A stretch of DNA of 34,134 nt. Source: Nitrospiraceae bacterium (lineage in GTDB: Bacteria > Nitrospirota > Nitrospiria > Nitrospirales > Nitrospiraceae). Shown one piece after another: positions 7,637 through 24,200 of this stretch. Each line of letters starts with the position of its first letter. Positions within the stretch are counted from its first letter, which is position 1. Position numbers and translations under genes: made by a program. The notes beneath the pieces were generated by a model that was not told where the DNA came from, ran no database searches, and saw nothing but the letters and a program-made list of their open reading frames with translations. The stretch is from assembly GCA_900299245.1 (NCBI GenBank), contig OMJA01000122.1:1-34134 (forward strand). Direction: 5' to 3'.

Positions 7637-8833
7637 ATGAACGGCCGTCAATCAGTACAGCAGACGTTGAACCCGCGTTGGTGCCTGGCCTATGACACGA
7701 TCGATCGGCAGGACATCAATCGACTGGTGGAATGGCTCCAGACCTACCCCCGACTGACAAAGGGAGCACTGACTGTCGAGTTCGAGTCCCGATGGTCTCA
7801 ATGGGTGAACGCATCCCGCTCGGTATTTTGTAATTCCGGATCTTCGGCCAATCTGCTCATGTACTACGCGCTTCAGGCATCCGGCCGGTTGCGGAACAAG
7901 AAAGTGATTGTGCCCAGCGTCGGCTGGGTGACGTCGATCGCTCCGGCCATTCAGTTCGGCTTCGAGCCGATCATGTGTGAGGCGGACCCGGACACCTTCG
8001 GGCTTGACCTGAATCACCTCGAAGACCTCTTGAAACGGCACCAACCGCAAACCGTGATGCTGGTTCAGGTCCTGGGTGTCCCGCATAAGATGCGGGAACT
8101 GATGGCGCTGAAAGCGCGATATGAATTCTTTCTGCTGGAAGACGCCTGCGCCGCCATCGGCGCCAGTTATGAAGGGAAGAAAGTCGGTTCCTTCGGCGAT
8201 ATGGCCAGCTTTTCCTTCTATTTCGGCCATCAAATGTCGACCATCGAGGGCGGCATGGTCTCCACCGATGACAAAGGCCTGGCCAATCTGCTTCTGATGC
8301 TCAGGAGTCATGGCTGGAGCAAGGATCTGGACTCCGATAGCCATCATGCGCTGGTGACGCAGCACCACATCGACGACTTCCATTCTCCGTTCGTCTTTTA
8401 CGAGCCTGGATTCAATCTCCGCTCGACCGATTTAAATGCCTTTATCGGAATCGGGCAACTGGAAAAGCTGGACTGGATGACGGAACAGCGTCGGGCAAAC
8501 CACGAGCGCTATCTTGAGCGCCTCAGTGCAAATTTCTATGTGCAACGCCCCCCGCAGAACAGCCAGGTTGCCAGCATTTCTGTCGGGCTGTTGGCGGAAT
8601 CCCGCCAGCAGCGCCAGCGGATTGTCCAGGCGCTCGCGGCGCGGGGAATTGAAACCCGCATTTTCTCAGCCGGCAATCTGGGGCTCCATCCGTTCTGGAC
8701 AAGCCGGTACGGCACAACCAGTTTCCCGGTGGCCGACCGTATTCACCACTGCGGGTTCTTCCTGCCGAACCATGCCGCGCTCACACCGGAAGACGTCGCC
8801 ACGATTTCGCAGGTTGTCCTGGAGGCGGCATGA
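7637..8833 (+). CDS. DegT/DnrJ-family PLP enzyme, ColD-like sugar 3-dehydratase
   Basis: This 398-residue protein has the DegT/DnrJ/EryC1/StrS fold: SGSSANLLM (67-75), LLEDACAAIGA (166-176) and SFYFGHQMSTIEGGM (193-207). In aminotransferases of this family the PLP-linking residue before T-x-E-G-G is Lys; here it is His198. This Lys-to-His change is the hallmark of ColD, which removes the C3 hydroxyl of GDP-4-keto-6-deoxymannose, and of the related CDP-sugar 3-dehydrase RfbH. The regions around RSHGWSKDL and PGFNLRSTDLNAFIGIGQLEKL also resemble ColD. The predicted role is 3-deoxygenation of a nucleotide-linked 4-keto sugar, not amination. A GAGGAG site precedes the ATG. The stop overlaps the next gene (ATGA). 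No obvious 4,6-dehydratase supplying a 4-keto substrate lies in the window. Confidence 0.82.
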   Translation: MNGRQSVQQTLNPRWCLAYDTIDRQDINRLVEWLQTYPRLTKGALTVEFESRWSQWVNASRSVFCNSGSSANLLMYYALQASGRLRNKKVIVPSVGWVTSIAPAIQFGFEPIMCEADPDTFGLDLNHLEDLLKRHQPQTVMLVQVLGVPHKMRELMALKARYEFFLLEDACAAIGASYEGKKVGSFGDMASFSFYFGHQMSTIEGGMVSTDDKGLANLLLMLRSHGWSKDLDSDSHHALVTQHHIDDFHSPFVFYEPGFNLRSTDLNAFIGIGQLEKLDWMTEQRRANHERYLERLSANFYVQRPPQNSQVASISVGLLAESRQQRQRIVQALAARGIETRIFSAGNLGLHPFWTSRYGTTSFPVADRIHHCGFFLPNHAALTPEDVATISQVVLEAA

Positions 8834-9786
8834 CAGGCCCGTTACTGGTGACCGGCGGAACCGGCTTGCTGGGATCGGCGGTTCGCAGGATCCGGCCTGA
8901 CGCCATTTTCCTGTCGCGTGCCGACGGCGATCTCCGTGACCGCAGTGTTGCGCATCGCCTGCTTGCAGAAATCCGGCCCGCGCAGGTCCTGCATCTGGCC
9001 GGATTAGTGGGTGGGGTAAAGGCCAACGCCGCACAAAATTCCCGTTTCTTTGAAGAGAATGCATTGATCAACACGGCTGTATTATCCGCGGCCAGATCCC
9101 TTCGAATACAAAGACTTGTATCGCTTCTCTCAAGTTGTGCCTTTCCTCTCTTTTCGGATCGGGCAACGACCGAAGACGATCTCCAATCAGCCCTGCCATA
9201 CGACGGCAATGCGGGATACGGCCATGCCAAACGTATGCTGGATATTCATACCCGCCTCGTCGCGAAAGAAGAAGGCTGGAAGTGGACGACGCTGACACCC
9301 GTCACGCTCTACGGCCCCCAGGATTCCTTTGATCCTGAAGGCGGCCATGTGGTGGGCTCACTCATACGTCGGTGTTGGGCGGCCAAAACTACGGGCGCCC
9401 CCTATGTCGTGTGGGGAAGCGGCCGCGCAGTCCGGCAATTCGCCTTTGTCGAGGATGTCGCCAACATCGCCGTGGACGCGGTTCAACGCAACCTCGATGC
9501 GACCACGACCATCATCGCCCCGGATGCCGGCACCACGATTCAAACTCTGGCCGAAACCATTGCAAGCGCCATGGGATATACAGGCCCGATCGTGTTCGAC
9601 CGGAGTCAGCCGGAAGGCGTGCTGATCAAGCGGCTGCAGAGCATGACGTTCTCCACACGATTTCCGGATTGCCGGTTTACCAGCCTTGCAGCCGGCCTCG
9701 AAAAAACAGTGCGCTGGTTTCTGGATTACGCAACGGCAGAGGACGGGGTTTCGAGCGGCCCCCCTCCGCTGTGCCATCAGTCCTAA
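8830..9786 (+). CDS. GDP-L-fucose synthase-like NAD(P)-dependent epimerase/reductase
   Basis: This 318-residue extended SDR begins with a GGTGLLG nucleotide-binding loop. It has the WcaG/Fcl hallmarks LAGLVGGVKAN, the SSC motif (VSLLSSCAFP), catalytic Tyr130 and Lys134 (YGHAK), and TPVTLYGPQDSF. Family members epimerise and reduce GDP-4-keto-6-deoxy sugars. ColC, which completes GDP-colitose after ColD, belongs to the same family, and this gene directly follows the ColD-like gene with overlapping ATGA. A paired deoxygenation and epimerisation/reduction step is therefore likely. Campylobacter MlghC-type enzymes, which act on GDP-heptose derivatives, are related and would fit the heptose genes downstream. 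The exact substrate cannot be read from the sequence. Confidence 0.82.
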   Translation: MTGPLLVTGGTGLLGSAVRRIRPDAIFLSRADGDLRDRSVAHRLLAEIRPAQVLHLAGLVGGVKANAAQNSRFFEENALINTAVLSAARSLRIQRLVSLLSSCAFPLFSDRATTEDDLQSALPYDGNAGYGHAKRMLDIHTRLVAKEEGWKWTTLTPVTLYGPQDSFDPEGGHVVGSLIRRCWAAKTTGAPYVVWGSGRAVRQFAFVEDVANIAVDAVQRNLDATTTIIAPDAGTTIQTLAETIASAMGYTGPIVFDRSQPEGVLIKRLQSMTFSTRFPDCRFTSLAAGLEKTVRWFLDYATAEDGVSSGPPPLCHQS

Positions 9787-9800
9787 GGAGTCGCCTTGCC

Positions 9801-10748
9801 ATGACCATAGGTAACACACATGTGCTTGTGACCGGTGGAGCGGGGTATATCGGATCGATGCTGTGCAAACAGCTGCTCGAACGGGGACACCGCGTCACCG
9901 TCCTCGACAGCTTTTTGTTCCGGCAGAACAGCCTGCTGGATTGCTGCGCCTACGAGACATTCCGGGTCGTGCGCGGGGATTGCCGGGACGAACGGGTCGT
10001 GACAGACCTGCTGCGCGACGCCGACATCATCATTCCGCTCGCGGCGCTGGTCGGAGCCCCGCTGTGCAACCGCGACCGGATCGGAGCCTACAGCATCAAT
10101 TTCGAAGCGGTACACATGCTGACCAAGCTCGCCTCGCCACAGCAACAGATCATCTTCCCGGTCACCAACAGCGGATACGGGATCGGACAACCGGGCATAC
10201 CCTGCACGGAAGACTCGCCGTTACGGCCTATCAGCTTGTACGGCGAAACGAAGGTCAAGGCGGAGCGGGTCGTGCTGGATCGCGGCAATGCGATTACCCT
10301 CCGGCTGGCGACGGTCTTCGGAGCGTCTCCGCGGATGAGGATGGACCTGCTGGTCAACGACTTCGTCTGGCGCGCCGTGCACGATCGGGCCGTTGTGGTG
10401 TTCGAAGGCCATTGCAAACGGAACTACATTCATATCCGCGATGTCGTGAAGGCGTTCCTCCACGCAATGGACCGCTTCGAGAGCATGAAGAATCGCGCCT
10501 ATAACGTCGGCCTGGACGACGCCAACCTCTCGAAGCTGGAGCTGTGCCAGGAGATCCGGCGACACATTCCCCAGTTCGTCTTCTTCGAAGCCCCGATCGG
10601 AGAGGACCCCGACAAACGGGATTACATCGTGTCGAACGAACGGATTCTCTCGACCGGTTTCCGTCCGGACTGGTCGCTCGAGCGCGGCATCCGCGAATTG
10701 GCCAAGTGTTACACCATCGTGACCGGAACAGGATACGGCAATGTCTAA
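9801..10748 (+). CDS. NAD-dependent nucleotide-sugar epimerase/reductase (extended SDR)
   Basis: This 315-residue protein has an N-terminal VLVTGGAGYIGS loop, a VTNSGYG segment and catalytic Tyr147/Lys151 (YGETK). RNYIHIRDV and YNVGLDDANLS are typical of the extended SDR sugar family. It lacks the Asp-Glu pair in the T-D-E-x-Y-G motif of 4,6-dehydratases, so an epimerase or reductase role is more likely. The frame runs upstream into the previous gene, but the start at 9801 is supported by AAGGAG (9785-9790) and by the Rossmann motif starting close to the N-terminus. In the operon it sits between the GDP-fucose-synthase-like enzyme and the heptose kinase, so a GDP-heptose or GDP-deoxyhexose derivative is the likely substrate. 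Confidence 0.8.
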   Translation: MTIGNTHVLVTGGAGYIGSMLCKQLLERGHRVTVLDSFLFRQNSLLDCCAYETFRVVRGDCRDERVVTDLLRDADIIIPLAALVGAPLCNRDRIGAYSINFEAVHMLTKLASPQQQIIFPVTNSGYGIGQPGIPCTEDSPLRPISLYGETKVKAERVVLDRGNAITLRLATVFGASPRMRMDLLVNDFVWRAVHDRAVVVFEGHCKRNYIHIRDVVKAFLHAMDRFESMKNRAYNVGLDDANLSKLELCQEIRRHIPQFVFFEAPIGEDPDKRDYIVSNERILSTGFRPDWSLERGIRELAKCYTIVTGTGYGNV

Positions 10749-10781: not shown

Positions 10782-11861
10782 ATGATCATCAGCCGCACAC
10801 CATTTCGCATCTCCTTCTTCGGAGGCGGGACCGATTACCCGGTCTGGTTCAAAGAGCACGGCGGTGCCGTGCTCGCCACCACGATCGACAAGTATTGCTA
10901 CATCTCCTGCCGGCACCTGCCGCCGTTCTTTGAACATAAAACGCGGATCGCTTATTCGCGAATCGAACACGCCAAGAATAATGCCGAGATCGAGCATCCG
11001 GCCGTCAGAGGCGTCCTGCAATATCTGAATATGACGGAAGGCCTCGAGATTCATCATGACGGCGACCTTCCGGCCCGCACCGGATTAGGCTCCAGCTCCT
11101 CGTTCACGGTCGGCCTGCTGCATGCTCTCTACGCAATGCAACACCGGATGCCGACCAAATCGGAACTGGCACATGCGGCGATTCACATTGAACAGAATAT
11201 CGTGCAGGAATCCGTCGGCTGCCAAGACCAGGTCCTGGCTGCCCATGGCGGTCTGTGCCGCCTGAATTTCTCTCCCACCGGGGAAATCGGCTACACCCCG
11301 CTGATCATGAAACCCGAGCGGCTCAAAGCCTTCCAGGACCATCTCCTGTTGTACTTCACCGGATTCTCCCGAACGGCGTCCGAAATCGCCAAAGAGCAGA
11401 TCGAAAAGACCAAACATCGCCGGGTCGAACTGTTCGCCATGTTGCAGATGGTGCAGGAAGGAATCTCACTGCTGACCGGGGACCATGACCTCTCGGAGTT
11501 CGGCGAACTCCTGCACGAGGCCTGGATGGTCAAGCGGGGACTGACCAGTAAGATTACCACTCCGCTCATCGATCAGATTTATGAGGCGGCGCGCAATGCC
11601 GGCGCACTCGGAGGAAAACTGCTCGGCGCCGGCGGGGGAGGCTTCATGCTGATCTATGCCAGGCCCGAGCTCCACGCCAGGATCAATGCCGCCTTGCCCG
11701 GCCTCCTCCAAGTGCCGTTCCAGTTCGAGGGTTCGGGAAGTCAGATCGTATTTTTTCAACAGGACGTTCCCGTCCGGCGGGCGCCGTTATGGCATGACGT
11801 ACCGACGGCCGCAGAACTTGAAGAACACACGGCTCAGACATGGAAGAAGGACGCCGCCTGA
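10782..11861 (+). CDS. hddA: GHMP-family sugar kinase, D-glycero-D-manno-heptose-7-phosphate kinase-like (HddA)
   Basis: This 359-residue protein opens with IISRTPFRISFFGGGTDYP, the HddA-type start. It has the GHMP ATP-binding motif GLGSSSSF (about 101-108) and a C-terminal GAGGGGFMLIYA motif 3 (about 283-294). HddA phosphorylates D-glycero-D-manno-heptose 7-phosphate at C1 on the way to GDP-D-glycero-alpha-D-manno-heptose. The next gene encodes an HddC-like guanylyltransferase, which strongly supports this over galactokinase- or fucokinase-like roles. GmhA and GmhB, the isomerase and phosphatase of the pathway, are not in the window and would have to come from elsewhere in the genome. An AAGGAGG site (10769-10775) precedes the ATG. 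The gene overlaps the next by one base (TGATG). Confidence 0.8.
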   Translation: MIISRTPFRISFFGGGTDYPVWFKEHGGAVLATTIDKYCYISCRHLPPFFEHKTRIAYSRIEHAKNNAEIEHPAVRGVLQYLNMTEGLEIHHDGDLPARTGLGSSSSFTVGLLHALYAMQHRMPTKSELAHAAIHIEQNIVQESVGCQDQVLAAHGGLCRLNFSPTGEIGYTPLIMKPERLKAFQDHLLLYFTGFSRTASEIAKEQIEKTKHRRVELFAMLQMVQEGISLLTGDHDLSEFGELLHEAWMVKRGLTSKITTPLIDQIYEAARNAGALGGKLLGAGGGGFMLIYARPELHARINAALPGLLQVPFQFEGSGSQIVFFQQDVPVRRAPLWHDVPTAAELEEHTAQTWKKDAA

Positions 11862-12589
11862 TGCAGCACGCAATGACCAATGTGGTCATCCTCTGCGGAG
11901 GCCTGGGAAACAGGCTTCGACCGGTCGTGCAAGATCGCCCCAAACCCATGGCCCTGATCAATGGCCGCCCGTTTCTCGATCTGGTAGTTGATCATGTGCT
12001 CTCCTACGGGTTGCGCCGGATCGTGTTCTGCACCGGCCATCACGGGGACTGGATTGCGCAGCATGTCAGCCGACGAACGGACTGTGAGGCGATCATCTCG
12101 CAGGAACAGACACCGCTCGGCACAGCCGGAGCACTCCGGGCCTGCGGCTCTCTGCTGACTACGCCGACCATTCTCGTACTGAACGGGGATTCCTTGTGCC
12201 GGATCGACCTGCATGCTTTTTTGACGGCGCATCACAACAGACAAGCCGTGGCCACGATGGCGGTCATACCGTCAAATGGACGGACCGACGCCGGAGGCGT
12301 GACGATGGATGCGTGCGGCAGGATCCGCACGTTTCAAGAGAAGCAGAGCGGTTCATTTCTCAATGCTGGCATCTACGCCGTTCAGCGACACTTGATCGAT
12401 GACATTCCCGACTCCGCCCCCTGTTCCCTCGAACGGGACATATTCCCGCAGCTGACGGACGGCAGGCTCTACGGCTATGCCTGCACTGTTCCGCTATACG
12501 ATATCGGAACGCCGGCTCGCCTGGCGGCGTTCGAAGCTCTTGAGAAAGACTCAACCAAGCACCATTACATCACCTCACTGTCACAATAG
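11861..12589 (+). CDS. hddC: Sugar-1-phosphate nucleotidyltransferase, heptose-1-P guanylyltransferase-like (HddC)
   Basis: This 242-residue protein has the nucleotidyltransferase signature VILCGGLGNRLRPVVQDRPKPM at the N-terminus, TPLGTAGAL in the sugar-binding region and LNGDSLCRID carrying the metal-binding Asp. The length and the lack of a C-terminal beta-helix match HddC-type enzymes, which form GDP-heptose from heptose 1-phosphate and GTP. The start at ATG 11861 overlaps the kinase stop (TGATG) and has AAGGA about 9 bases upstream. ATG 11840 and 11873 are in-frame alternatives. Assignment to heptose rests mainly on the preceding HddA-like kinase; a mannose-1-phosphate or glucose-1-phosphate nucleotidyltransferase cannot be excluded. 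Confidence 0.75.
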   Translation: MQHAMTNVVILCGGLGNRLRPVVQDRPKPMALINGRPFLDLVVDHVLSYGLRRIVFCTGHHGDWIAQHVSRRTDCEAIISQEQTPLGTAGALRACGSLLTTPTILVLNGDSLCRIDLHAFLTAHHNRQAVATMAVIPSNGRTDAGGVTMDACGRIRTFQEKQSGSFLNAGIYAVQRHLIDDIPDSAPCSLERDIFPQLTDGRLYGYACTVPLYDIGTPARLAAFEALEKDSTKHHYITSLSQ

Positions 12590-12599
12590 GAGCGGCGCT

Positions 12600-13430
12600 A
12601 TGAAACATGCTTTGACACTCGCGAAACCGGTTTGGGGCATCGGAAAACACGTGGTGATTACCGGCGGTTCCAGCGGCATCGGGTTTGAAGTCGCCAAACG
12701 CCTCAACGGAGTCTGCCGAAAGATTTCCCTGATCGCGCGCAACGAGAACGGCAAGCTCGCCGAAGCGAAGGAAACACTGCTCCGCCTCCAAAAGAATAAA
12801 CGAAACGGGGTCCACACGGAAATCACTACCTGCGCGATGGACGTGCGCAATATCGAATCCGCCCAGGCCTGGATCGGCGATGTGTATTCCAAAGGAAAAG
12901 ATCAGATCGATATTTTCGTGAGCTCGGCGGGCGGCAGCCACGTCTACGGCACGCTGGAAGAAATGACCATGGCGGACATCAATGCGATTTTCGACGTCAA
13001 TGCCAAAGCACCGATCCTGTGGATGCGCGCCTTGTTGCCCTATATGAAGCTCAACAAGATCGAACGGCGGGAAACCAAGCGGGGCCACGTGCTCATGTTG
13101 TCGTCCCGTTCAGGCGAGCGCACCTTGCCCAAGCTGAGCGTCTATACCGCTGCGAAAGGGGCGGTGGAGAAGCTGGTCGAGGCGATGCAGAAGGAATATG
13201 TCCAATATCGCATGGTCTTCACCCTCATCAATCCCGGATCCGTGAACACCGATTTCACCGCCCATTGGGATATGGCCACGAGAAAAGCTCATAACGACGA
13301 AAGCATGTCCGTGCAGGAAGCCGCCGATTCGATCCTGCATGCCATTCATTCTCACGTGGCCATCAACAAGATCTCCTACGAGTCGGTCAGCCAGTGGATG
13401 CATGAACCCGGCGTGCTTGTCGCGAGCTAA
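12600..13430 (+). CDS. Classical short-chain dehydrogenase/reductase
   Basis: This 276-residue protein has the classical SDR elements: TGGSSGIG cofactor loop, a Ser-Ser-Ala-Gly-Gly version of the NAG motif, MLSSRSGER with the catalytic Ser, Tyr182/Lys186 (YTAAK) and INPGSVNTDF. It should oxidise or reduce a hydroxyl/keto group with NAD(P)(H). The frame is open from 12477, but the ATG at 12600 with AGGAG just upstream places the Rossmann motif normally. Its place between sugar activation and the aminotransferase/E1 genes suggests a reduction step on the same sugar. If the E1 pair adds a two-carbon keto branch, this enzyme could reduce that ketone, as YerF does for yersiniose. That role is speculative. 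Confidence 0.8.
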   Translation: MKHALTLAKPVWGIGKHVVITGGSSGIGFEVAKRLNGVCRKISLIARNENGKLAEAKETLLRLQKNKRNGVHTEITTCAMDVRNIESAQAWIGDVYSKGKDQIDIFVSSAGGSHVYGTLEEMTMADINAIFDVNAKAPILWMRALLPYMKLNKIERRETKRGHVLMLSSRSGERTLPKLSVYTAAKGAVEKLVEAMQKEYVQYRMVFTLINPGSVNTDFTAHWDMATRKAHNDESMSVQEAADSILHAIHSHVAINKISYESVSQWMHEPGVLVAS

Positions 13431-13432
13431 CC

Positions 13433-14635
13433 ATGACGATCACGGCTTCACTCATGACGACGGCTGCCCGGCACAGGGTGAACGAGGTGTTGGGCACACT
13501 GCCTCGTTCCGGCATCCGCCGGCTGACGGACCAGGTCATGGGAAGCCGGGACATGGACGATGCGATCCAGCTGGGATTCGGACAGCCGCAGGAAGCAACG
13601 GATGACCTCATCCGGGAGGCCATCGGCAAGGCCGCCGGAGCGCGCACGCTGGCGTACACGGAAAATGCCGGCATGCGGACGCTCCGTGACGCCATTGTGA
13701 CGAAACTGGCCCTCCGCAATCAGGTCGAGACGGATGCCGAGAGCATATTCGTCACGCCCGGCGCCACCTATGGCGTGGCCGTCACCATCGGATGCCTGAT
13801 CAATCCGGGCGATGAAGTTCTGGTGCCGGATCCCGGCTATCCCAACTTCGCCGCCGCCGTGCGCCACTACGGCGGCGTCGTGAAGTTTTATCAGCTCCGC
13901 CAAGAGACGGGCTTTCTTCCGGATGTGAATGAGCTGACGGCGCTTATCTCGCCGGCCACCAAAGTGCTTATCATCAATTCTCCCGGCAATCCCACCGGTG
14001 CAGTCATAGACGCCGGCATGATGGAACAACTGGTCCTGCTTACCCGCGAGCGGGGAGTGTGGCTGGTGTCCGACGAAGTCTATGAGACCTATGTGTACGG
14101 GCGCCGGCACGTCTCACCACTGTCATTCGCCGGCAGCGACCATGTCGTGGGACTCTACAGCTTCTCAAAAAGCTACAACATCACCGGCCTGCGCGTGGGC
14201 TATGTCGTCACCCGGCATCCGGCGTTGCGCCGGGCTTTGCTGAATGCCCAGGAACTGTATATCTCCTGCGCTCCATCCGTCTCTCAAACGGCTGCGCTCC
14301 AGGCGCTGGCCGATGGCGGCGCCTATCCGGAGACCATGCGAGCAATCTATCAGCAGAAGCGCGACCTGGTGATGAACATCCTGGGCTCCTACGCGGGACG
14401 CCGTCCCGATGGCGCCTTCTACCTGCTGGTCGATATCGGTTTCACCGGCCTGCATTCGGATGACTTCGCCGATCGTCTGCTCAAAGACACCCATGTTGTC
14501 GTGGCACCGGGAGCGACCTTCGGTCCGACGTCCGACAGGTACATCCGTCTCGCGTTTACTCCACCGGTCGAAAAGCTGGAGGCAGGGCTGACGCGCCTCA
14601 AACAGTTCCTGAGCCAGTGGCCTATTGCCGACTAA
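13433..14635 (+). CDS. Class I/II PLP-dependent aminotransferase
   Basis: This 400-residue fold-type I aminotransferase has YTENAGMRTLRDAI, PGATYG, DPGYPNF, the NSPGNPTGA motif, SDEVYE and the PLP lysine Lys246 in FSKSYNITGLRVGY. RLAFTPP near the C-terminus carries the carboxylate-binding Arg. These features fit aspartate- or alanine-type aminotransferases acting on amino acids and 2-oxo acids, unlike the DegT enzyme that opens the operon. The gene starts 2 bases after the SDR stop. It may supply a 2-oxo acid such as pyruvate to the E1 enzyme encoded next, or make an amino-acid substituent for the glycan. Either role is an inference from gene order. An alternative in-frame start lies at 13454. 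Confidence 0.85.
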   Translation: MTITASLMTTAARHRVNEVLGTLPRSGIRRLTDQVMGSRDMDDAIQLGFGQPQEATDDLIREAIGKAAGARTLAYTENAGMRTLRDAIVTKLALRNQVETDAESIFVTPGATYGVAVTIGCLINPGDEVLVPDPGYPNFAAAVRHYGGVVKFYQLRQETGFLPDVNELTALISPATKVLIINSPGNPTGAVIDAGMMEQLVLLTRERGVWLVSDEVYETYVYGRRHVSPLSFAGSDHVVGLYSFSKSYNITGLRVGYVVTRHPALRRALLNAQELYISCAPSVSQTAALQALADGGAYPETMRAIYQQKRDLVMNILGSYAGRRPDGAFYLLVDIGFTGLHSDDFADRLLKDTHVVVAPGATFGPTSDRYIRLAFTPPVEKLEAGLTRLKQFLSQWPIAD

Positions 14636-14647
14636 GAAGGATCATCG

Positions 14648-15553
14648 ATGAATTGTGAGCTTGAACAAAGAACTCCCGCGTTCGGCCTCATCTCCGGAGT
14701 AGCAGGTACGTTTTCAAAAGACTATACCCTGAAGCTGTTCGCGCAGACCTGCTTCAATCGCTTCTTCGAGTTCGAAGTGAAGAACGCGTACGACCGGGGT
14801 TTAATGAAGCTGCCGATTTATCTGTCGGTCGGGCAGGAACATATTCCCGCCGCCATCACGTCGGTGTTTTCCGACTGTTTGATCTTTGCCCAGCACCGGG
14901 CTCACTCGGTCTATCTGTCGTTCGGCGGCGATCCTCGTCAACTGATCGATGAGCTTCTGGGTCGGCCGACCGGATGTGCCCGCGGCATGGGGGGCTCCGC
15001 CTCAATTCATTCTCCGCAGATCGGCATGTTCGGACACAGCGGGCTCATGGGTGACCAGGTTCCCATCGCCGTGGGCGCCGCATTGGGCTCGGCGAAACCC
15101 GTTCTGACGGTGATGGGTGATGCCTCCGCTGAAGAGGACTACATCTACGGAGCCCTGGGGTTTGCCGTCACCAAGAAACTCCAGGTCCTCTTCGTCTGCG
15201 AAGACAATGATCTGTCGATCTTGACGAGGACCCCTGTGCGTCGCTCCTGGACGCTCTGCGGTCTCGCGCAGGGCCTGGGACTTCCCGCAGTCGATATCAC
15301 GGATGACCCCTGGCTGATTGCGCATCACGTGAAGCAATTCAGCCGGCAATTACCCGCCGTGATCAACATTCGTACCTGTCGCGGCTTATGGCACGCGGGC
15401 TCCGGTTGCGACGGGCCTCCGGAGTGGAATCGCTTTGCATTGATCAAGGAGACCATGAAGACCCTTGAGCTGGAACAGGATGCCCTGGCCATCGAATCCG
15501 AGACTGAAAGGACCGTGCAGAATCTATGGGCAGAACAGTTGCGGAAGTCATAA
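14648..15553 (+). CDS. Thiamine-diphosphate-dependent E1 component, alpha subunit
   Basis: This 301-residue protein aligns with the alpha subunit of 2-oxoacid dehydrogenase E1. It has QHRAHSVYLSFGGD (82-95), GCARGMGGSASIH (109-121) and HSGLMGDQVPIAVGAALG. The ThDP/Mg motif runs from GDA (157-159; usually GDG) to EDND (185-188), with the normal spacing. The alpha subunit binds the diphosphate and metal end of ThDP; the active site is completed by the beta subunit encoded next, with a 28-base overlap. No E2 or E3 gene is present, so a dehydrogenase complex is unlikely. AviB1/AviB2-type pairs, which attach two-carbon branches to antibiotic sugars, are a precedent. AAGAAGGA precedes the ATG. Confidence 0.85.
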   Translation: MNCELEQRTPAFGLISGVAGTFSKDYTLKLFAQTCFNRFFEFEVKNAYDRGLMKLPIYLSVGQEHIPAAITSVFSDCLIFAQHRAHSVYLSFGGDPRQLIDELLGRPTGCARGMGGSASIHSPQIGMFGHSGLMGDQVPIAVGAALGSAKPVLTVMGDASAEEDYIYGALGFAVTKKLQVLFVCEDNDLSILTRTPVRRSWTLCGLAQGLGLPAVDITDDPWLIAHHVKQFSRQLPAVINIRTCRGLWHAGSGCDGPPEWNRFALIKETMKTLELEQDALAIESETERTVQNLWAEQLRKS

Positions 15554-16470
15554 GAGAGACGACCAGAGACCATCTAACGAACCACCGCGGTCTTTTTTTG
15601 GGACAGTGCGTGACGGCCGTCGGATGGATCGGCGGCACAGTCCCGGCTATGTCGGAAGCGGAAGGTATCGTCGAACTCTCTCTCGCCGATGTCACCAATG
15701 CCGGGATCGCCGTCGGGGCGGCATTGGCCGGCCGGCGACCGATCTATACGGTTCGCTATCAAGGATTCATGTGGTACAACGCCGCTCCCATCGTGAATTA
15801 CGCGGCAAAGTCCAAAGACGTCTGGGGTGTCCCCTGTCCGGTGTTTCTTCGCGCCATCGCGATGGAAGGAAACGGCATCGGTCCGGTGGCCTCGGCATCG
15901 CAGCACGGCCTCATCATGAGAATGCCCGGGATGCCGGTTTGCGCACCCATGTCGCCAGGCGAATGGACGGAGGCCTGGAACTGGTTTATGCGTCACGACG
16001 ACCCTCTCTACGTCAGCGAGCATCGTCGGAGCTTTGCCATCGACTATGAATTTCACAACAGTATCGAGCCGGAGGCGGATATCACGCTCTTCCCCATTTC
16101 AGCCGCCCGCCTGAATGCCGTCGAAGCGGCTCACGCGTTGCGGAAAGAGGGGATCCTCTGCAACATCCAGCACCTGGTCTGGCTCAAACCGTTCACAGTA
16201 ACCGACGACATGCGTCACGCACTGTCCCAAACGAAACTCGGACTCGTGATCGATTCGGACTTTGAGATCGGCGGCCCGTCTCGATCGATTGCCTATGACC
16301 TGATGCACCAATGCGGCGCGCCGGTGTTCGCCCTTGGTCTGGAAGACCGTTCAGCCGGCGTCGCTGACGCGCTGGACAACCCGACTCCCACTCCGGAACG
16401 GATCGTGCGCGTCGTTCGGGAACTGGTTCGGAGCGGACGGACCGTGCCGGCGGGAGCCACGATTGAATAA
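15526..16470 (+). CDS. Thiamine-diphosphate-dependent E1 component, beta subunit (altered active site)
   Basis: This 314-residue protein aligns without gaps to E1 beta subunits around LADVTNAGIAVGAALAGRRPIYTVRYQGF. The Glu that activates the ThDP pyrimidine in canonical E1 beta (the E of DTPLAE) is Asp55 here. The HS-x-S active-site segment is also changed: ASASQHGL, with Ala at the His position. The C-terminal transketolase domain is complete (IQHLVWLKPF; VIDSDFEIGGPSRSIAYDL). The fold is preserved, but the chemistry probably differs from pyruvate dehydrogenase. The alpha gene overlaps by 28 bases, and the next gene begins 45 bases on. Possible roles are a sugar-branching ketolase or another acyl transfer from a 2-oxo acid. 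An inactive partner subunit is also possible. Confidence 0.8.
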   Translation: MGRTVAEVIRETTRDHLTNHRGLFLGQCVTAVGWIGGTVPAMSEAEGIVELSLADVTNAGIAVGAALAGRRPIYTVRYQGFMWYNAAPIVNYAAKSKDVWGVPCPVFLRAIAMEGNGIGPVASASQHGLIMRMPGMPVCAPMSPGEWTEAWNWFMRHDDPLYVSEHRRSFAIDYEFHNSIEPEADITLFPISAARLNAVEAAHALRKEGILCNIQHLVWLKPFTVTDDMRHALSQTKLGLVIDSDFEIGGPSRSIAYDLMHQCGAPVFALGLEDRSAGVADALDNPTPTPERIVRVVRELVRSGRTVPAGATIE

Positions 16471-16515: not shown

Positions 16516-18072
16516 ATGATCCAGATCGGACCAGTACCTTCAGCGCACCGTTCACAGGAGCCGGCGACAACACTTCCAGGCCGGCTCGATCTCCTGCTCA
16601 TCAATCCGAACTCGCGAGCCAGGGTCTATCAAAGCCTTGCGTCTGATCTCGCCGCGGTTGAACCGCCGGTCTGGATCGGATTGATCGCGACATTCATCAG
16701 GGACCGCGGTTATTCCGTCAAGATTATGGATGCGGAAGCGGAAGGCTTCGGGTCGGACGGGGTCGCAGAACGTGTCCGGCGCCTGAATCCCAGATTGGCC
16801 GCCGTCATCGTCTACGGCCAACAACCGTCCGCGTCGACCCAGAACATGACGGCTGCCGGGGAGGTCTGCAAAGCCATCAAACGGCTCACGCCCCGGCAAC
16901 CGCTGCTCATGGGCGGATTGCATCCGTCGGCTTTGCCTGAACGGACGATGCAAGAGGAGTCCGTCGATTTTGTCTGTCAGGGCGAAGGTCACTACACGCT
17001 TCTCGGCCTCCTGCGCCAGCCCGAATGGAAGGGCCCGGTTGACTACAGCCAGGTCAACGGACTCTGGTACCGGAAGCAGGGCGTCATCTGCTCGACTCCG
17101 CAAGCCCCGGTGATCGAAGATCTGGATACAGATTTACGCGCCGTGGCGTGGGATCTGCTCCCGATGGACAAATACCGCGCCCACAACTGGCATTGTTTCG
17201 GGCATATCGGCGACCGCAAGCCCTATGCCTCGATGTATACAAGCCTCGGGTGTCCGTTCAAATGCTCGTTCTGCTGCATCAACACACCCTTCGGGAAACC
17301 GATGATCCGCTACCGCAGTCCGGAAAGTGTAATCCGGGAAATCGACGAGCTCGTCACGAAATACGGCGTGCGGAACATCAAGATGGCCGACGAGATGTTC
17401 ATTCTCAATGAACGGCAGGTCCTCGGCATCTGCGATCTCATCATCGGGCGGGGATATGACCTGAACATTTGGGCATATGCACGGATCGATACGGTCAAGG
17501 ACAGCATGCTGAAGAAGCTCAAACAGGCCGGGGTCAACTGGCTGGGAATCGGCATTGAATCCGCCAGCAAATACGTCCGAGACGGAGTGGACAAGAGCTT
17601 CGGCAAGAAGGACATCAAGGAGATATTCGAGAAGATCCGTGCCGCGGATATCAATATCGGGGCAAATTTCATTTTCGGACTTCCCGACGACACCCTGGCC
17701 ACCATGCAGGAAACGTTGGACCTGGCCATCGAACTCTGCCCGGACTGGGCGAACTTCTATTCGGCCATGGCCTATCCCGGCTCAAAACTCTACGACCTCG
17801 CGCTGACAAACGGCACCGCCTTGCCGGACACCTGGGTGGGGTACTCGCAACATGCGTACGAGGCGCTGCCCTTGCCGACGGATCACGTGTCGGCTGCCGC
17901 AGTCCTTCAATTCCGCGACCAGGCGTTCCACACTTTTTTCGAGCACCCGCAATATCTCGCGCATGTGGAGCGGCGCTTCGGACAGGACACGGTCGCGCAT
18001 ATCCAATCGATGACAGCCCATCGTTTGAAACGTAAATTTGCTGACGCACCGCTTCAACCCGAGGCGGCCTGA
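16516..18072 (+). CDS. B12-binding-domain radical SAM protein
   Basis: This 518-residue protein has an N-terminal cobalamin-binding-like Rossmann domain (about 24-165: LLLINPNSR, GLIATFIRDRGYSVKIMDAEA, LLMGGLHPSALPE). It is followed by a radical SAM core with the [4Fe-4S] triad Cys246, Cys250 and Cys253 (GCPFKCSFC). GIESASKYVRDGVDKSF and FIFGLPDDT are typical of the class. The DxHxxG motif of strict B12 ligation is absent, as in many class B enzymes. Such enzymes often methylate unreactive carbon; the substrate here is probably a sugar or the finished glycan. The ribosome-binding site is a GGGGAGGGGAG run just before the ATG. About 65 C-terminal residues beyond the core are unassigned. C-methylation is an inference from family and context. 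Confidence 0.82.
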   Translation: MIQIGPVPSAHRSQEPATTLPGRLDLLLINPNSRARVYQSLASDLAAVEPPVWIGLIATFIRDRGYSVKIMDAEAEGFGSDGVAERVRRLNPRLAAVIVYGQQPSASTQNMTAAGEVCKAIKRLTPRQPLLMGGLHPSALPERTMQEESVDFVCQGEGHYTLLGLLRQPEWKGPVDYSQVNGLWYRKQGVICSTPQAPVIEDLDTDLRAVAWDLLPMDKYRAHNWHCFGHIGDRKPYASMYTSLGCPFKCSFCCINTPFGKPMIRYRSPESVIREIDELVTKYGVRNIKMADEMFILNERQVLGICDLIIGRGYDLNIWAYARIDTVKDSMLKKLKQAGVNWLGIGIESASKYVRDGVDKSFGKKDIKEIFEKIRAADINIGANFIFGLPDDTLATMQETLDLAIELCPDWANFYSAMAYPGSKLYDLALTNGTALPDTWVGYSQHAYEALPLPTDHVSAAAVLQFRDQAFHTFFEHPQYLAHVERRFGQDTVAHIQSMTAHRLKRKFADAPLQPEAA

Positions 18073-18090: not shown

Positions 18091-19146
18091 ATGGGATTAG
18101 ACGTCAACATCATCACGGGCAATCTCGGACAGGCCATTCACACCGAAGACCTGCTGGAGTATGTACGGGAAGGCCTGACCAGCGCAGGACTGAAGGTCGG
18201 GTATTCACAAACCGAATACCTAACCCATGGCATCAATATCCTGATCGAACATCCCTTCGGAGCGGTCTATGACCAACTGTACGTCATGCGAAAGCTCTTG
18301 CCGCACTCGAAGCTCTACATGATTGTGACCGAGTTGCTCACTCCGTCGGGCTTCAACTCTTCGAATTCGAAACAAACGGGCCGGATAAACCCCGAAGACC
18401 ATTACGATGACGGCGAATACTGGACCAACAGAACCCGGGAGTTCATGAGATTCGTGCCGGTCGTTGACGGGTTCATCATGGTCGGCCTGCACAAGGTCCG
18501 GGGAATGCTCCCGGCGGGATATGAGGAAGGAGTATCGAGCTATTTCCAATTGGGCAAGCCCGTGTATCTCGTGCCACTCTGTCATCCGCCGGCACCATCA
18601 CGCCCGACAACTTCGCTCCGGCACCGTGAAAAAGATATCGATATTCTGTTTACCGGCACACTCACGCCTTATCGCATCAAAGTGCTCGACGAACTCCGGT
18701 CGAGAAACTTCAAGGTCGTGGCGCTCGAAGCGCATATGCCGGCTTATCTGAGAAATGATTTTATCGATCGATGCAGACTGTCACTCGGCCTCAAATTATC
18801 CGAGGAGACGAAGATTCTGTCCACGATGCGAGCCTATCATCACCTGGTGCATCGCATCCCGCATGTCTTCGAACGCACCTCAATACGCTCGCCCCTCGAT
18901 CCGTTCATTAACGTAATCGACAGCGGGGAGCCGTTTATCGAGGCGTGCACGGAACTCTTATCCGGGAGACGGGAGTTTCCGGCACAACGTTTTGCGGAGT
19001 TTCAACAGTCCCCAGAATTCAATTATCTGGATACCTTTGCGGAATTTCGCTCAGTGCTGACTGCCAGACCGCGGCAGCGCTCGTCAGAGGAGAACCGGCA
19101 TGAAATCACTACTCTTGAACGTCATACACCAGCCTACAGATACTGA
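18091..19146 (+). CDS. GT-B-like protein, possible CgeB-type glycosyltransferase
   Basis: This 351-residue protein is not firmly recognised. The second half has KDIDILFTGTLTPYRIKVLDELR (about 181-203), then RCRLSLGLKLSEETKILSTMRAYHHLVHRIPHVFE. This arrangement resembles the nucleotide-binding half of CgeB-like GT-B glycosyltransferases. The first half shows alternating strands and helices but no clear motif. Its neighbours are two radical SAM genes, so it belongs to the glycan assembly line either as a transferase or as an accessory protein. The gene starts 18 bases after the previous stop, and its last 47 bases overlap the next gene. A GGTAGGAG sequence lies before the ATG. No signal peptide or membrane segment is seen. 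Confidence 0.6.
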   Translation: MGLDVNIITGNLGQAIHTEDLLEYVREGLTSAGLKVGYSQTEYLTHGINILIEHPFGAVYDQLYVMRKLLPHSKLYMIVTELLTPSGFNSSNSKQTGRINPEDHYDDGEYWTNRTREFMRFVPVVDGFIMVGLHKVRGMLPAGYEEGVSSYFQLGKPVYLVPLCHPPAPSRPTTSLRHREKDIDILFTGTLTPYRIKVLDELRSRNFKVVALEAHMPAYLRNDFIDRCRLSLGLKLSEETKILSTMRAYHHLVHRIPHVFERTSIRSPLDPFINVIDSGEPFIEACTELLSGRREFPAQRFAEFQQSPEFNYLDTFAEFRSVLTARPRQRSSEENRHEITTLERHTPAYRY

Positions 19147-20995
19147 ACCGTCTGGGGGATGCAGCGAATCCCTGCCCGGAACAAAAGCCGTCATCTTCGA
19201 GCATCTCAAGGCCTTATTTCCCCATGGGTGCCGCCGCGTGCTCTTGATCACGCCGCCGGAATCTCCCGAGAAGGACTTCAACCGCGATCTGGTCCTGAGC
19301 AAACGCTATCCCTGCTTTCCTCCCTACGGCCCGGGGGTTCTGGCCAGGAATCTTGAGAACCGTGGTTATCAGGGAGCGTTGCTGGATTTGAATTATCACG
19401 TCCTCAAGCATGTGCACGAACATCCGCAGGACTTCAATTTCCGCGTATGGGAAACGTGCCTGGAGGAAAAGATTCAGGCATTCCAACCGGACCTGATCGG
19501 CATCAGCGTGATGTTCACCATCTCACGGCCGTCGCTCGGCGACGTGGCCGCCTATCTCAAGAAGACTCATCCGTCCATTCCCATCATCGCCGGAGGAATC
19601 TGTGTCTCCAACGATGTCGAGTCGGTTCTACGAAGTGTCCCGGAAATCGATATCGGAAGTTTTTACGAAGCGGATCGCAGCTTACCGGATCTGCTGGACG
19701 TCGTGAACAACACCAGGCCGGTGTCCGATATACGCCAGATCGCCGTCATAAAAAACGGGACCTTCGTCTCAACCAGGGAGCGCGCCACTCCGACCGATCA
19801 GGAAATCGACGTGCAGCCGGAATATTACGATCTGCCGATCGGGGAGTATGCCCGGTATGGCTCCATGGGCGCCTATAACTTTATGCGGGGAGAACGCCCG
19901 GCCTCGACCGTCATCAGTAACCGGGGCTGCCGGGCGAAGTGCTCCTTCTGCGCCGTACGCAACTTCAACGACATCAGCGTGAGAGGGCGCGAGGTGACAA
20001 GCGTGGTCGACGAGATGGAGCAGGTGCGCGATCGCTACGGCGTCACCCATTTCATGTGGCTCGACGACGATTTGCTCTATAACACCACCCGTGCGATCGC
20101 GCTGTTCAAGGAAATCACGCGGCGCAAGCTCAATATCACCTGGGATGCCAGCAACGGATTGATCGCGGCGGCCATTACACCGGAACTGATGCAGGCCGCG
20201 TCCGATTCGGGCTGTATCGGATTCAATCTCGGACTCGAGTCGGGAAACGACCGGATTCTGAAATTAATCCACAAACCCGGCACCACGAAAAGCTATCGAA
20301 AGGCCCGCCGCATCCTTGACCGGTACCCGCACGTCTTTGTGAAAGGCTTCATGATCATCGGCTTCCCCCATGAGACGATTGCGCAAATTCGCGACACCGT
20401 GAACCTCGGATGCGAACTGCAATTCGGCTGGTATCCGTTGCAACTGCTGACCACCTTGCCCGGGACGGAAATAACCTTGAGTATGATCGAACAGGGGCTG
20501 ATCAAACCGCCGACCGACGCCAGTTTCAAAGGCCTGGCGGCCGGCTCCAAGAGCAAAGGCGGCGGCACACTCCGGCATCGCGAACAGACCGAGAAAGTAT
20601 CCGCGAGAGAGTTTGTCGATCTGCTGGCGACACTGCCCGCCGATCATGTTCCGACGACCGCCGAACTAGACGACCTCTGGTTCGTTGCCGACTATAAAAT
20701 GAATTATGAAAAGATTCTGTCTGTGCATGAACCGGTCAAGCTGCGCAACATCAGGGTGATGCTGCAGCAAATCACGGACGACTACACCGTCGACAATGCC
20801 ATGGGCAACCTGTTTCTTGCCGTCATTGCGTCAAAACTCCAGGAGTTCGGCGAGAGTCAACGGCGGCTTGCGCTGGCAACACGATACCAGGAAGAGTCGG
20901 CGTACTGGACTAAACGGTTTACCGTGCTGGGCATGAGTGCGATCGCCGAACGAGTCCGCGCCGCGAATGCACTGGCGATTCCGCTGGCGGCATAA
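19100..20995 (+). CDS. B12-binding-domain radical SAM protein (second, longer)
   Basis: This 631-residue protein has an N-terminal cobalamin-binding-like region (about 45-200: RRVLLITPPES, YGPGVLARNLENRGYQGALLD, LIGISVMFTISRP, IIAGGICVS). It continues with a radical SAM core containing Cys277, Cys281 and Cys284 (GCRAKCSFC), MWLDDDLL, GLESGNDRILKLI and GFMIIGFPHET. A C-terminal helical region (about 480-631) is unassigned. It is the last gene of the biosynthetic operon and is followed by a probable terminator. The start overlaps the previous gene by 47 bases but is supported by GAGGAG 8 bases upstream. Its sequence is clearly different from the first radical SAM protein, so the two probably act at different positions or substrates. 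B12-dependent methylation is the likeliest class; other radical chemistry is possible. Confidence 0.82.
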   Translation: MKSLLLNVIHQPTDTEPSGGCSESLPGTKAVIFEHLKALFPHGCRRVLLITPPESPEKDFNRDLVLSKRYPCFPPYGPGVLARNLENRGYQGALLDLNYHVLKHVHEHPQDFNFRVWETCLEEKIQAFQPDLIGISVMFTISRPSLGDVAAYLKKTHPSIPIIAGGICVSNDVESVLRSVPEIDIGSFYEADRSLPDLLDVVNNTRPVSDIRQIAVIKNGTFVSTRERATPTDQEIDVQPEYYDLPIGEYARYGSMGAYNFMRGERPASTVISNRGCRAKCSFCAVRNFNDISVRGREVTSVVDEMEQVRDRYGVTHFMWLDDDLLYNTTRAIALFKEITRRKLNITWDASNGLIAAAITPELMQAASDSGCIGFNLGLESGNDRILKLIHKPGTTKSYRKARRILDRYPHVFVKGFMIIGFPHETIAQIRDTVNLGCELQFGWYPLQLLTTLPGTEITLSMIEQGLIKPPTDASFKGLAAGSKSKGGGTLRHREQTEKVSAREFVDLLATLPADHVPTTAELDDLWFVADYKMNYEKILSVHEPVKLRNIRVMLQQITDDYTVDNAMGNLFLAVIASKLQEFGESQRRLALATRYQEESAYWTKRFTVLGMSAIAERVRAANALAIPLAA

Positions 20996-21254: not shown

Positions 21255-24200
21255 ATGAAAGTGCTGCTTCTCCAACTCGAGTTTCCGACCTGGAAAACGG
21301 CCAGACCCTGGACGTACGGAGCAAGCTTCGCCGTGTCCGATGGACTCGCCGCCAACGGAGTCACCTGCCTGACCGTTCCGATCGTGCCCGATGAAGCAGC
21401 CACTGCTCCCGATTCATGGCTGTCTCACGCCCGCCGCATGCTGGCTGGACAGCGATTCGATCAGGTGTGGATCTGGCTCGTGCATGCGCCTCTCGACGCA
21501 CGGGTCCTCGAATGGGCGGCGGAATTAGCTCCTGTGCGCATCGGCTTCTTCATGGAATCGCTGCGGTATGAGGAGGAGGACTATCGGTGGGCGCCCGAAC
21601 TGCGGAGTCGACATGTCACCTTTCACCGCCAGCTTGACTACCTCACTCACGCCTTGCTGGTGGATGAACGGGATGTCGCCGAGCTTCAGACCCTTGGAAC
21701 GAAACCGGCCCTCTGGTGCCCCGGTTTAGTGCCGCGACGCTTCATTACTGGCACTTCGCACGCTCCCCGCCACAACCGGGCGGTGTTTCATGGCAATGTG
21801 TACGGCGAACGCTCGCGCTGGATCGAGCATCCGCTGCTGCGCGAACGGTTAACCTTTGCCAAGTCGCCGGATGAATACACCCCGAATCAACGAAAGTTCG
21901 ACGAACTTCAAGCAATTGCAAGCGAGCGCACGCGCCATCTTCCATTAGTGACGGCCGTTGATCTGGAGCGCTATGTTCGGGCGTTGCACAACGTGCGTGA
22001 GGCCGAGTTTCGTGACTGGTTATCCGGACTTGCCGACTGGGCCGGCATCGTCAACCTTCCCGGTCTCACGCGTTGCTTCGGCGGCCGCGTCTATGAAGCC
22101 ATGGCGGTAGGGCGCCCGGTGATTTCCTGGCGTATTCCCGACAGACCCAGAGTCAATGCCTTGTTTGAGGACGAGCGGGAGATCCTGCTGTTCGCGCCGG
22201 ATGATCCTGGGGCGTTGGCCCAGCAGATCGATCGGATTCTCACCGACAAGCATCTTGCCAAGTCGATCGGCACCCAGGGACAGCGCAAACTTCTTGCCTA
22301 CCATACAGCCGAACGCCGGATGAAGGACATTCTCCAGTGGTTGGACACGGGCAAAGAGCCGGATTACGGGATCACGCCAACGGCCGCCGAGCAGCCCACC
22401 GGCCTCGCCTCCGCCACACCTGCCGGTCAACTGGCAGCTCCGCGTTCCAAGTCACAGGCTCCCGTATCCACGACCGTCTTTTTGCTGACGGTCGGTGATC
22501 CGGCCTTCCAAGCCTGTAAAGACTCGGTCGAACGGCAAACCGGGACGACCTTCAAGGTCGAAACGATTCAAAACGTCTGTCCCTTCAATGCTGCCGCCCA
22601 GGAAATGATTACGCGCTGTACCACGCCATACTTCATTCAGGTCGATGAAGATATGGTCCTACATCCCGATGCGGTCAGCCGGATGGAGCAGCAGATGGCG
22701 CACGCTCCATCTGAAGTCGGCATGATTTGCTTTCATCTCTATGACGAAGACCGGGAATGTCCGATCCAAGGAGTCAAGATCTACCGAACCGAGTCGATGA
22801 AACAGGTGTCATTCCTCGATCTCAAAGCCAGCGAAATGAATCTGTTGGACCAGATGGGGGAGCAGGGGATCCGATGGATCCTTCATCCCGACGTGCTCGG
22901 ACGCCATGGCACCCAGTACACCCCCGATACCATCTACCGGCGTTACAAAACAATGTACGAAAAAGATATCCGTCAGTGGAATCTGTTGACGTCGGATATT
23001 CACAAAAAAGCCCATCGCTTCCGGGAGACCGGCGACATCGTCCAACTGTTTGCGTTGCTCGGAGCCGCGCACGGCATTATCGATGCCCCGCATGTGCCGG
23101 ACCGGGAGAAAGACGCCCGCGCGTACAACTTGAAAGAATTGGAAATCTTCGGGCGGCTTTTCAAACACACCCCGCCGGCCAGCCAGGCCTACGATCTTTC
23201 ACGAGCGGCCGTGCCGCTGAAGAATCCACCGATTCCCCATGATCAGGTGAGCGGGACGAATCCGCAGATTCCACCGTCTACCGATCGCACCCGGCCGGCA
23301 TTGGAACAGCCGGCCTCAGTCCCTGCGACATCCGCCACAGGCTCAGCCCGGCAGCCTCGCCACATCCTCATCGTGACTCCTTATTTCTGGCCGTCGGTCG
23401 GGGGCGTGGAGACGGTGGCAGAAGATCTGGCAGCCGGACTCATTGCCTCCGGCATGACCGTCCATGTCGCATGTTATCGGCACCCGGACCGCCGGGCATC
23501 GACGCATCGTGGAATCGGGATTATTGAACTCGCCGAACCCGAGGACTCGTCCGACGGCATGCCCAGGTCTGCGCTTCAAGTCGAACAACTAATCGCATCG
23601 AATCGCTACGACGCCTGCATTCTGCTTGGCTCGCCCATGAATGCATTTTTTTATGCGATGCTCGACCTTGAAGATTTGAAAAGCCGAAATATTATTTTCC
23701 AGCCGACCCTCAATCAAGAGGGGTACAGGTTCATTCAGGAGCGGCCGGTTGTCCTCACTCTGCTCAAACAGTTGGTTAAACAAACGACGGCCGTCGTTGC
23801 ATTGGGGCATGATACCCTTGATGCCCGCTTCTGCCGGGAGATCGGCACTCCCGCGACAATCATCCCGAACGGCACACCAACGCTGAAGCCGTCGGGTGAT
23901 TTTAGACAGAAGCACCGGATCGCTGAAGATCGCTTCCTGATCGTGCATATTGCCAATCTGTATCGAGTCAAAAACCATCCTGGTCTGCTCACGGCACTGA
24001 ATACGCTGCCGCCAAGAGCCACACTCGTCGTCGCCGGACATCCGACACATGAAACCGATTATGTTGCGGAAGTGCAGCAGGCCCTCGCAGCACATCCTGA
24101 CGTCCTCTATATTCCCGGGCTCGATCGAGAGGGTGTTGCGTCGGCGATCCAGGCGGCCAATCTTGTAGTCCTGTCTTCCGACTCGGAAGTGTCACCGTTG

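Follow-up and report, generated by a model that had tools for sequence, protein, structure and literature searches.

A predicted ColD-type C3-dehydratase beside a Cj1427-like dehydrogenase gene in a likely flagellin glycosylation island of a Nitrospiraceae bacterium

The window, by which we mean the whole stretch of DNA that was analysed (34,134 nucleotides of contig OMJA01000122.1, assembly GCA_900299245.1, from a Nitrospiraceae bacterium), carries a DegT-family gene in a tight operon. The features referred to below are the following.

615-1097: FliW (Pfam)
7637-8833, + strand: DegT-fold PLP/PMP enzyme, predicted GDP-4-keto-heptose 3-dehydratase of the ColD type (PF01041, ColD as best PDB match, His column, tree, no Fe-S cysteines)
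8830-9786, + strand: SDR resembling GDP-fucose synthase (GFS) and ColC, predicted C4-reductase (NCBIfam GFS 170 bits, below cut-off; best PDB matches are GDP-L-fucose synthases)
9801-10748, + strand: enzyme resembling the GDP-heptose C4-dehydrogenase Cj1427 and predicted to supply the 4-keto substrate (6vo6 375 bits, Foldseek, motif survey)
10782-11861, + strand: HddA-like GHMP kinase, i.e., heptose phosphate kinase (NCBIfam HddA 119 bits, below cut-off; PDB 3k85 125 bits)
11840-12589, + strand: nucleotidyltransferase resembling HddC and mannose-1-phosphate guanylyltransferase (NCBIfam 139 and 102 bits, below cut-offs)
12600-13430, + strand: classical SDR oxidoreductase (Pfam adh_short, matched by a longer ORF that starts at 12477; the start at 12600 was picked by ribosome-binding site and overlap)
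13433-14635, + strand: class I/II aminotransferase-like PLP enzyme (Pfam 203 bits)
14648-15553, + strand: E1-alpha-like subunit of a TPP enzyme (Pfam E1_dh 56 bits; ThDP motif GDA...N)
15526-16470, + strand: E1-beta-like subunit of a TPP enzyme (Pfam Transket_pyr/Transketolase_C; alignment)
16516-18072, + strand: B12-binding radical SAM enzyme (Pfam)
21255-27791, + strand: multidomain glycosyltransferase with methyltransferase and TPR (Pfam)
33235-34062, + strand: flagellin, likely glycan acceptor (Pfam Flagellin_N/C)

As genes for large glycosyltransferases stand between those for FliW and flagellin, the window is likely a flagellin glycosylation island. Intergenic gaps from the DegT gene to the radical SAM gene range from -28 to +45 bp. 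The SDR at 8830-9786 overlaps the DegT gene by 4 bp and contains SSC, YxxxK and GHV motifs. It keeps a Cys and a His that align with the epimerisation residues of GFS. The best PDB matches of the nucleotidyltransferase, 6jq8 and 5xhw, belong to the 6-deoxy-mannoheptose pathway. A GmhA-like and a GmhB-like gene are found elsewhere in the source genome, the latter below cut-off; no GmhB above the cut-off of 149.6 was found in ten genomes, where the best matches scored 101-136 bits per genome. The gene at 21255-27791 encodes a protein of 2178 residues with several glycosyltransferase domains, a methyltransferase domain and TPR repeats. Two B12-binding radical SAM enzymes, at 16516-18072 and 19100-20995, may be glycan methylases, although this is a guess. 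In a Hydrogenedentes locus (L032, 4319-8486), a flagellin-like gene lies close to a DegT/Cj1427-like pair, which is an independent hint at flagellin. Our literature search found no flagellin glycosylation work on Nitrospira and nothing pairing a C3-dehydratase with Nitrospira.

The ORF at 7637-8833 starts with ATG and encodes 398 amino acids that match the DegT_DnrJ_EryC1 family model (Pfam PF01041, 249 bits). His198, encoded by the codon at 8228-8230 within YFGHQMSTIEGG, falls on the same column as ColD His188 in phmmer alignments. The residue opposite is h in wild-type ColD, n in the H188N and k in the H188K mutant chains, which are named as mutants in the PDB titles. In ColD, this column corresponds to the PLP-lysine position of aminotransferases, and the role of the His is described in excerpts of PMC8987622. 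We read the column in 61 rows and found His in 55 and Lys in five, the remaining row being a fragment that stops short of it. The His rows comprise the window copy, 44 close homologues and ten members of a second, distant group (31-39% identity) that further genomes within the same genus carry, while the Lys rows are five other DegT homologues found in the source genome. His in 55 of 61 homologous rows led us to reject a frameshift, a sequencing slip or a local oddity. The first-pass annotation had placed His198 at the PLP-lysine position and attributed the same Lys-to-His change to ColD and RfbH; the column match and the counts confirm the former, and both enzymes have His at the aligned column.

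A species-genome scan of contigs, which requires exact peptide stretches and thus retrieves close relatives only, yielded 36 loci with DegT proteins 56-91% identical to that of the window. His was kept in all 35 loci that cover the column. Their hosts include Nitrospira, Elusimicrobia, delta/Myxococcota bins, Hydrogenedentes, several CPR groups and one Nanoarchaeota bin. In the second group, the His was read in loci L052-L061, a set that does not include the DegT of genome G016.

To place the protein independently of its most telling residue, the tree was built without the His column, from 47 of 55 collected rows after near-copies were dropped. A single branch with 100/99 support separated 38 His rows, including the window protein, ColD and E1/RfbH, from nine Lys rows, which are aminotransferases. 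As several Lys rows form long branches, no feature of this tree other than the His/Lys separation is used here, and the tree was drawn without the Campylobacter HS:5 enzyme and SpnQ sequences. Clustering with Lys-bearing aminotransferases had been named beforehand as the outcome that would speak against a 3-dehydratase; the opposite was found. ColD was also the top PDB sequence match (167 bits, against 134 for the next non-ColD entry). With an AlphaFold model of mean pLDDT 90, ColD was the first Foldseek match (E-value 9.5e-32) and ranked first in VIA-align 2 (Z 47.2, best non-ColD entry 44.8). The aspartate-aminotransferase-type fold is common to all DegT enzymes, and the lead of ColD amounts to about 2 Z units.

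None of the four columns that hold the [2Fe-2S] cysteines of E1 is Cys in any of 33 rows of clade H1, which includes the window protein. An E1/RfbH-type enzyme was rejected for this reason, and a ColD-type, glutamate-driven mechanism is expected instead. Clade H1 has a constant His-Gln at the active-site position, whereas ColD, E1, RfbH and all other His enzymes examined have His-His. The product of 7637-8833 is best read as a ColD-type C3-dehydratase, which it very probably is. The earlier reading of a 3-dehydratase rather than an aminotransferase thus draws support from tree, fold and His column, its catalysis being predicted.

The protein encoded at 9801-10748 has 6vo6 as its best solved relative (375 bits) and is about 55% identical to Campylobacter Cj1427. 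All top Foldseek matches of its model are Cj1427 chains, with a TM of 0.93 and an rmsd of 1.5 A to 6vo8. The PDB titles of 6vo6 and 6vo8 both name Cj1427, and that of 6vo8 adds NADH and GDP-heptose. The protein has TNSGYG and YxxxK motifs and lacks TDE/TSE, the motif of 4,6-dehydratases. Homologues beside His-DegT genes that cover the motif likewise have TNSGYG (TNSAYG in the second group, SNSGYG in L019) and YxxxK rather than TDE/TSE. We considered this SDR as the missing 4,6-dehydratase and rejected it, as it carries TNSGYG and is closest to Cj1427.

The two genes are closely linked. A Cj1427-like gene lies near the His-DegT in 34 of the 36 scan loci. The other two contigs break off within the DegT gene, which makes 34 of 34 evaluable loci. 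Among 245 Nitrospirota genomes, 22 have this DegT, in every case with a Cj1427-like gene at a distance of 49-980 bp on one contig. A further 25 genomes have the Cj1427-like gene alone and 198 have neither (Fisher 1.2e-18, uncorrected for kinship, the 22 genomes representing three genera). Of 25 genomes chosen by hand, 18 combined a Cj1427-like gene with a DegT that matched the His groups, one had the His-DegT alone (G019), one the Cj1427-like gene alone (G048) and five had neither at the thresholds used. In four ColD-like loci, from plasmids and a cyanophage, a GDP-mannose 4,6-dehydratase gene (gmd) is present instead and the Cj1427-like gene is missing. Synechococcus phage ACG-2014f (L103, 3050-6167) has three genes in a row, for a GDP-mannose 4,6-dehydratase, for an SDR and for a DegT with the His. 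This set resembles a colitose cassette, and its DegT is annotated as a hypothetical protein.

The first-pass annotation had seen no 4,6-dehydratase gene nearby. Indeed, none was found among the scanned ORFs of the window, where the sole GDP_Man_Dehyd signal consists of weak matches to two SDRs (55 and 67 bits), and no GMD-like match of at least 55% was found in any of 12 Nitrospira-type loci. The genome-wide search for gmd that it had proposed retrieved nothing above cut-off from the source genome, which is 88% complete (best match 70 of the 415 bits needed), and we rejected the presence of gmd there on this basis.

These searches bear on an alternative in which the C3-dehydratase acts on a 6-deoxy-4-keto sugar (GDP-4-keto-6-deoxymannose or -heptose) supplied by a 4,6-dehydratase encoded elsewhere, leading to colitose or a 3,6-dideoxy-heptose. 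ColD and the HS:5 enzyme both act on such a sugar (PMC8987622, PMC10440746). Supply in trans is possible in six of ten related genomes with the DegT gene, which have gmd above cut-off elsewhere in the genome; in three more of the ten, as in the source genome, none reached the cut-off. In the complete genome G022, moreover, gmd lies about 77 kb from the DegT gene and beside a GFS-like gene, as for GDP-fucose. A GFS-like gene also adjoins gmd in loci L062-L065, where the GMD-like queries deh34 and deh35 detect real gmd. Closer to the DegT gene, 11 of the 36 scan loci, none of them among the 12 of Nitrospira type, encode a GMD-like 4,6-dehydratase that has a TSE motif, so the substrate in those 11 may be 6-deoxy. 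The constant neighbour of the DegT gene is the Cj1427-like gene and not gmd, and for the window we regard a 6-deoxy substrate as unlikely. Likely, the gap left by the 4,6-dehydratase is filled by the Cj1427-like GDP-heptose C4-dehydrogenase predicted from the same operon. This partner favours the heptose equivalent over GDP-4-keto-6-deoxymannose as substrate.

Among the loci with a GMD-like gene, L034 (11195-12178) and L035 (1272-2261) have it next to the DegT gene as well as the Cj1427-like one, and TSEVYG was read in both loci. Nine further loci have the same arrangement.

The fold and the nearest general models of the window DegT are those of aminotransferases. Its best NCBIfam matches, the PseC transaminase (204 bits) and RfbH (201 bits), are both far under their cut-offs, so an automatic pipeline would go no further than naming the family, as an aminotransferase. 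Such a label is indeed carried by three ColD-like plasmid genes that we fetched, and the expectation that automatic annotation would produce this name was well founded. An actual aminotransferase that works despite its His and forms a 4-amino-heptose, in the manner of SpnQ without its reductase, is nevertheless very unlikely. SpnQ has transaminase activity under some conditions (PMC8987622, in part), but the window protein lacks the Fe-S cysteines and is hence unlike SpnQ. It also lacks the Lys for the internal aldimine and groups with ColD and E1, for which excerpts of PMC8987622 report no transaminase activity.

A catalytically dead protein or scaffold, which loss of the PLP lysine alone could suggest, is highly improbable given that the DegT gene is kept within a tight operon and that 103 columns, including H198 and D169, are invariant across 33 homologues from several phyla. 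The invariant columns come from alignment A1, which holds 33 of 37 possible rows and leaves out the near-copies L008 and L009 and the fragments L040 and L041; alignment A2 holds the window copy and 14 of 34 loci.

We conclude that the DegT protein is probably a ColD-type, PMP-dependent C3-dehydratase, and not an aminotransferase, that acts on GDP-4-keto-heptose from its Cj1427-like neighbour. The likely product is a GDP-3-deoxy-heptose that retains its 6-OH. The analysis itself shows the His, the clade, the fold, the absence of Fe-S cysteines and the linkage with a Cj1427-like gene; all of the reactions are predicted, as are the nucleotide, the stereochemistry and flagellin as the target. GDP-D-glycero-D-manno-heptose would be made with the help of the HddA-like and HddC-like enzymes, and its C4 would be oxidised by the 9801-10748 dehydrogenase with the 6-OH kept, 2-oxoglutarate recycling the bound NADH, as described for Cj1427 in PMC10680097 (in part). 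The PMP of the His enzyme would form a ketimine with the 4-keto group of the sugar, His198 would take a proton from PMP, and the 3-OH would leave. Hydrolysis would then set free ammonia and the 3-deoxy-4-keto sugar. PMP would be restored from L-Glu, with formation of 2-oxoglutarate that the dehydrogenase could use, a coupling that we infer. Finally, the ColC-like SDR at 8830-9786 may reduce C4, possibly after C5 epimerisation, to provide GDP-3-deoxy-heptose for flagellin. According to the part consulted of PMC10680097, Cj1427 and the HS:5 C3-dehydratase together form 3-deoxy-4-keto-heptose in vitro, and the products are termed novel. Counting against a pathway this simple are the GMD-like genes of 11 loci, the gmd found elsewhere in six of ten related genomes, the sub-cut-off scores of the HddA-like and HddC-like proteins, the absence of a GmhB above cut-off from ten genomes, the His-Gln of clade H1 and the 25 of 245 genomes with the Cj1427-like gene alone.

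An E1-alpha/beta pair of one of two types is present in 20 of the 36 loci, where it often abuts the DegT gene. The AviB1/AviB2 and Pau11/Pau12 pairs and YerE have been linked to two-carbon branches on 4-keto sugars (PMC4753412, PMC4425429, each in part). With these precedents, the frequency of the pair beside the DegT gene makes a C4-branched 3-deoxy-heptose conceivable. The E1-beta-like subunit has Asp for the usual PDH-like Glu in the window (15526-16470) and in L010, L012, L018, L033 and L094, while the other type of pair has Glu there, which calls for caution about a two-carbon-branch role. In L018, a 2-isopropylmalate-synthase-like gene (15105-16379) adjoins a window-type E1 pair. A bolder reading, which we put forward tentatively and think unlikely, treats the His enzyme, the Cj1427-like dehydrogenase and the E1-alpha/beta pair as a single cassette that moves between genomes and serves to make a nine-carbon sugar with a branch. 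The TPP pair would add a two-carbon unit at C4 of GDP-3-deoxy-4-keto-heptose made without a 4,6-dehydratase, with dehydratase and dehydrogenase coupled via 2-oxoglutarate. The spread of this cassette would cover the flagellin islands of Nitrospira as well as Elusimicrobia, Myxococcota-like bins, CPR bacteria and one Nanoarchaeota bin. If true, its product would be the heptose counterpart of yersiniose.

With a C3-dehydratase as the preferred reading of the DegT protein, an 'aminotransferase' annotation becomes a testable deoxygenation step, and a natural gene pair is supplied for the reaction sequence that PMC10680097, as far as consulted, assembled in vitro. Judging from the titles found in our literature search on 3-deoxy-heptose, this paper alone concerned such heptoses.

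Compared with known systems, the window protein is most like ColD (GDP-4-keto-6-deoxymannose 3-dehydratase, PDB 2gms), with which it shares the fold, His for Lys, the lack of Fe-S cysteines, a GDP-sugar context and an adjoining ColC-like SDR. The two differ in sequence (about 26-28% identity) and in having His-Gln versus His-His, and the window locus has a Cj1427-like C4-dehydrogenase in place of gmd. The Campylobacter jejuni HS:5 C3-dehydratase, compared here by its description only, is similar in using a GDP-4-keto-heptose and accepts the 6-OH form in vitro with Cj1427; it is unlike in that its natural substrate is the 6-deoxy form from a 4,6-dehydratase. It is 62-67% identical to ColD-type enzymes by the authors' own figure (PMC10440746, PMC10680097, both in part). 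Cj1427 itself (PDB 6vo6/6vo8) resembles the 9801-10748 protein at about 55% identity and a TM of 0.93, but in HS:2 it feeds a C3/C5-epimerase and a reductase rather than a C3-dehydratase. E1/RfbH (CDP-4-keto-6-deoxyglucose 3-dehydratase, PDB 3bcx) shares His for Lys and the same side of the tree, and is unlike in its four Fe-S cysteines, missing from the window DegT, its reductase-derived electrons and its CDP sugar. YerE, AviB1/AviB2 and Pau11/Pau12 are TPP enzymes tied to 4-keto sugars in the sources as consulted, and the AviB and Pau pairs are PDH-E1-like as in the window; their likeness to the window operon is one of gene neighbourhood only. The 3-dehydratase pathway is already known, and what appears to be new, as far as gene content can tell, is a natural Cj1427-like partner that replaces the 4,6-dehydratase.
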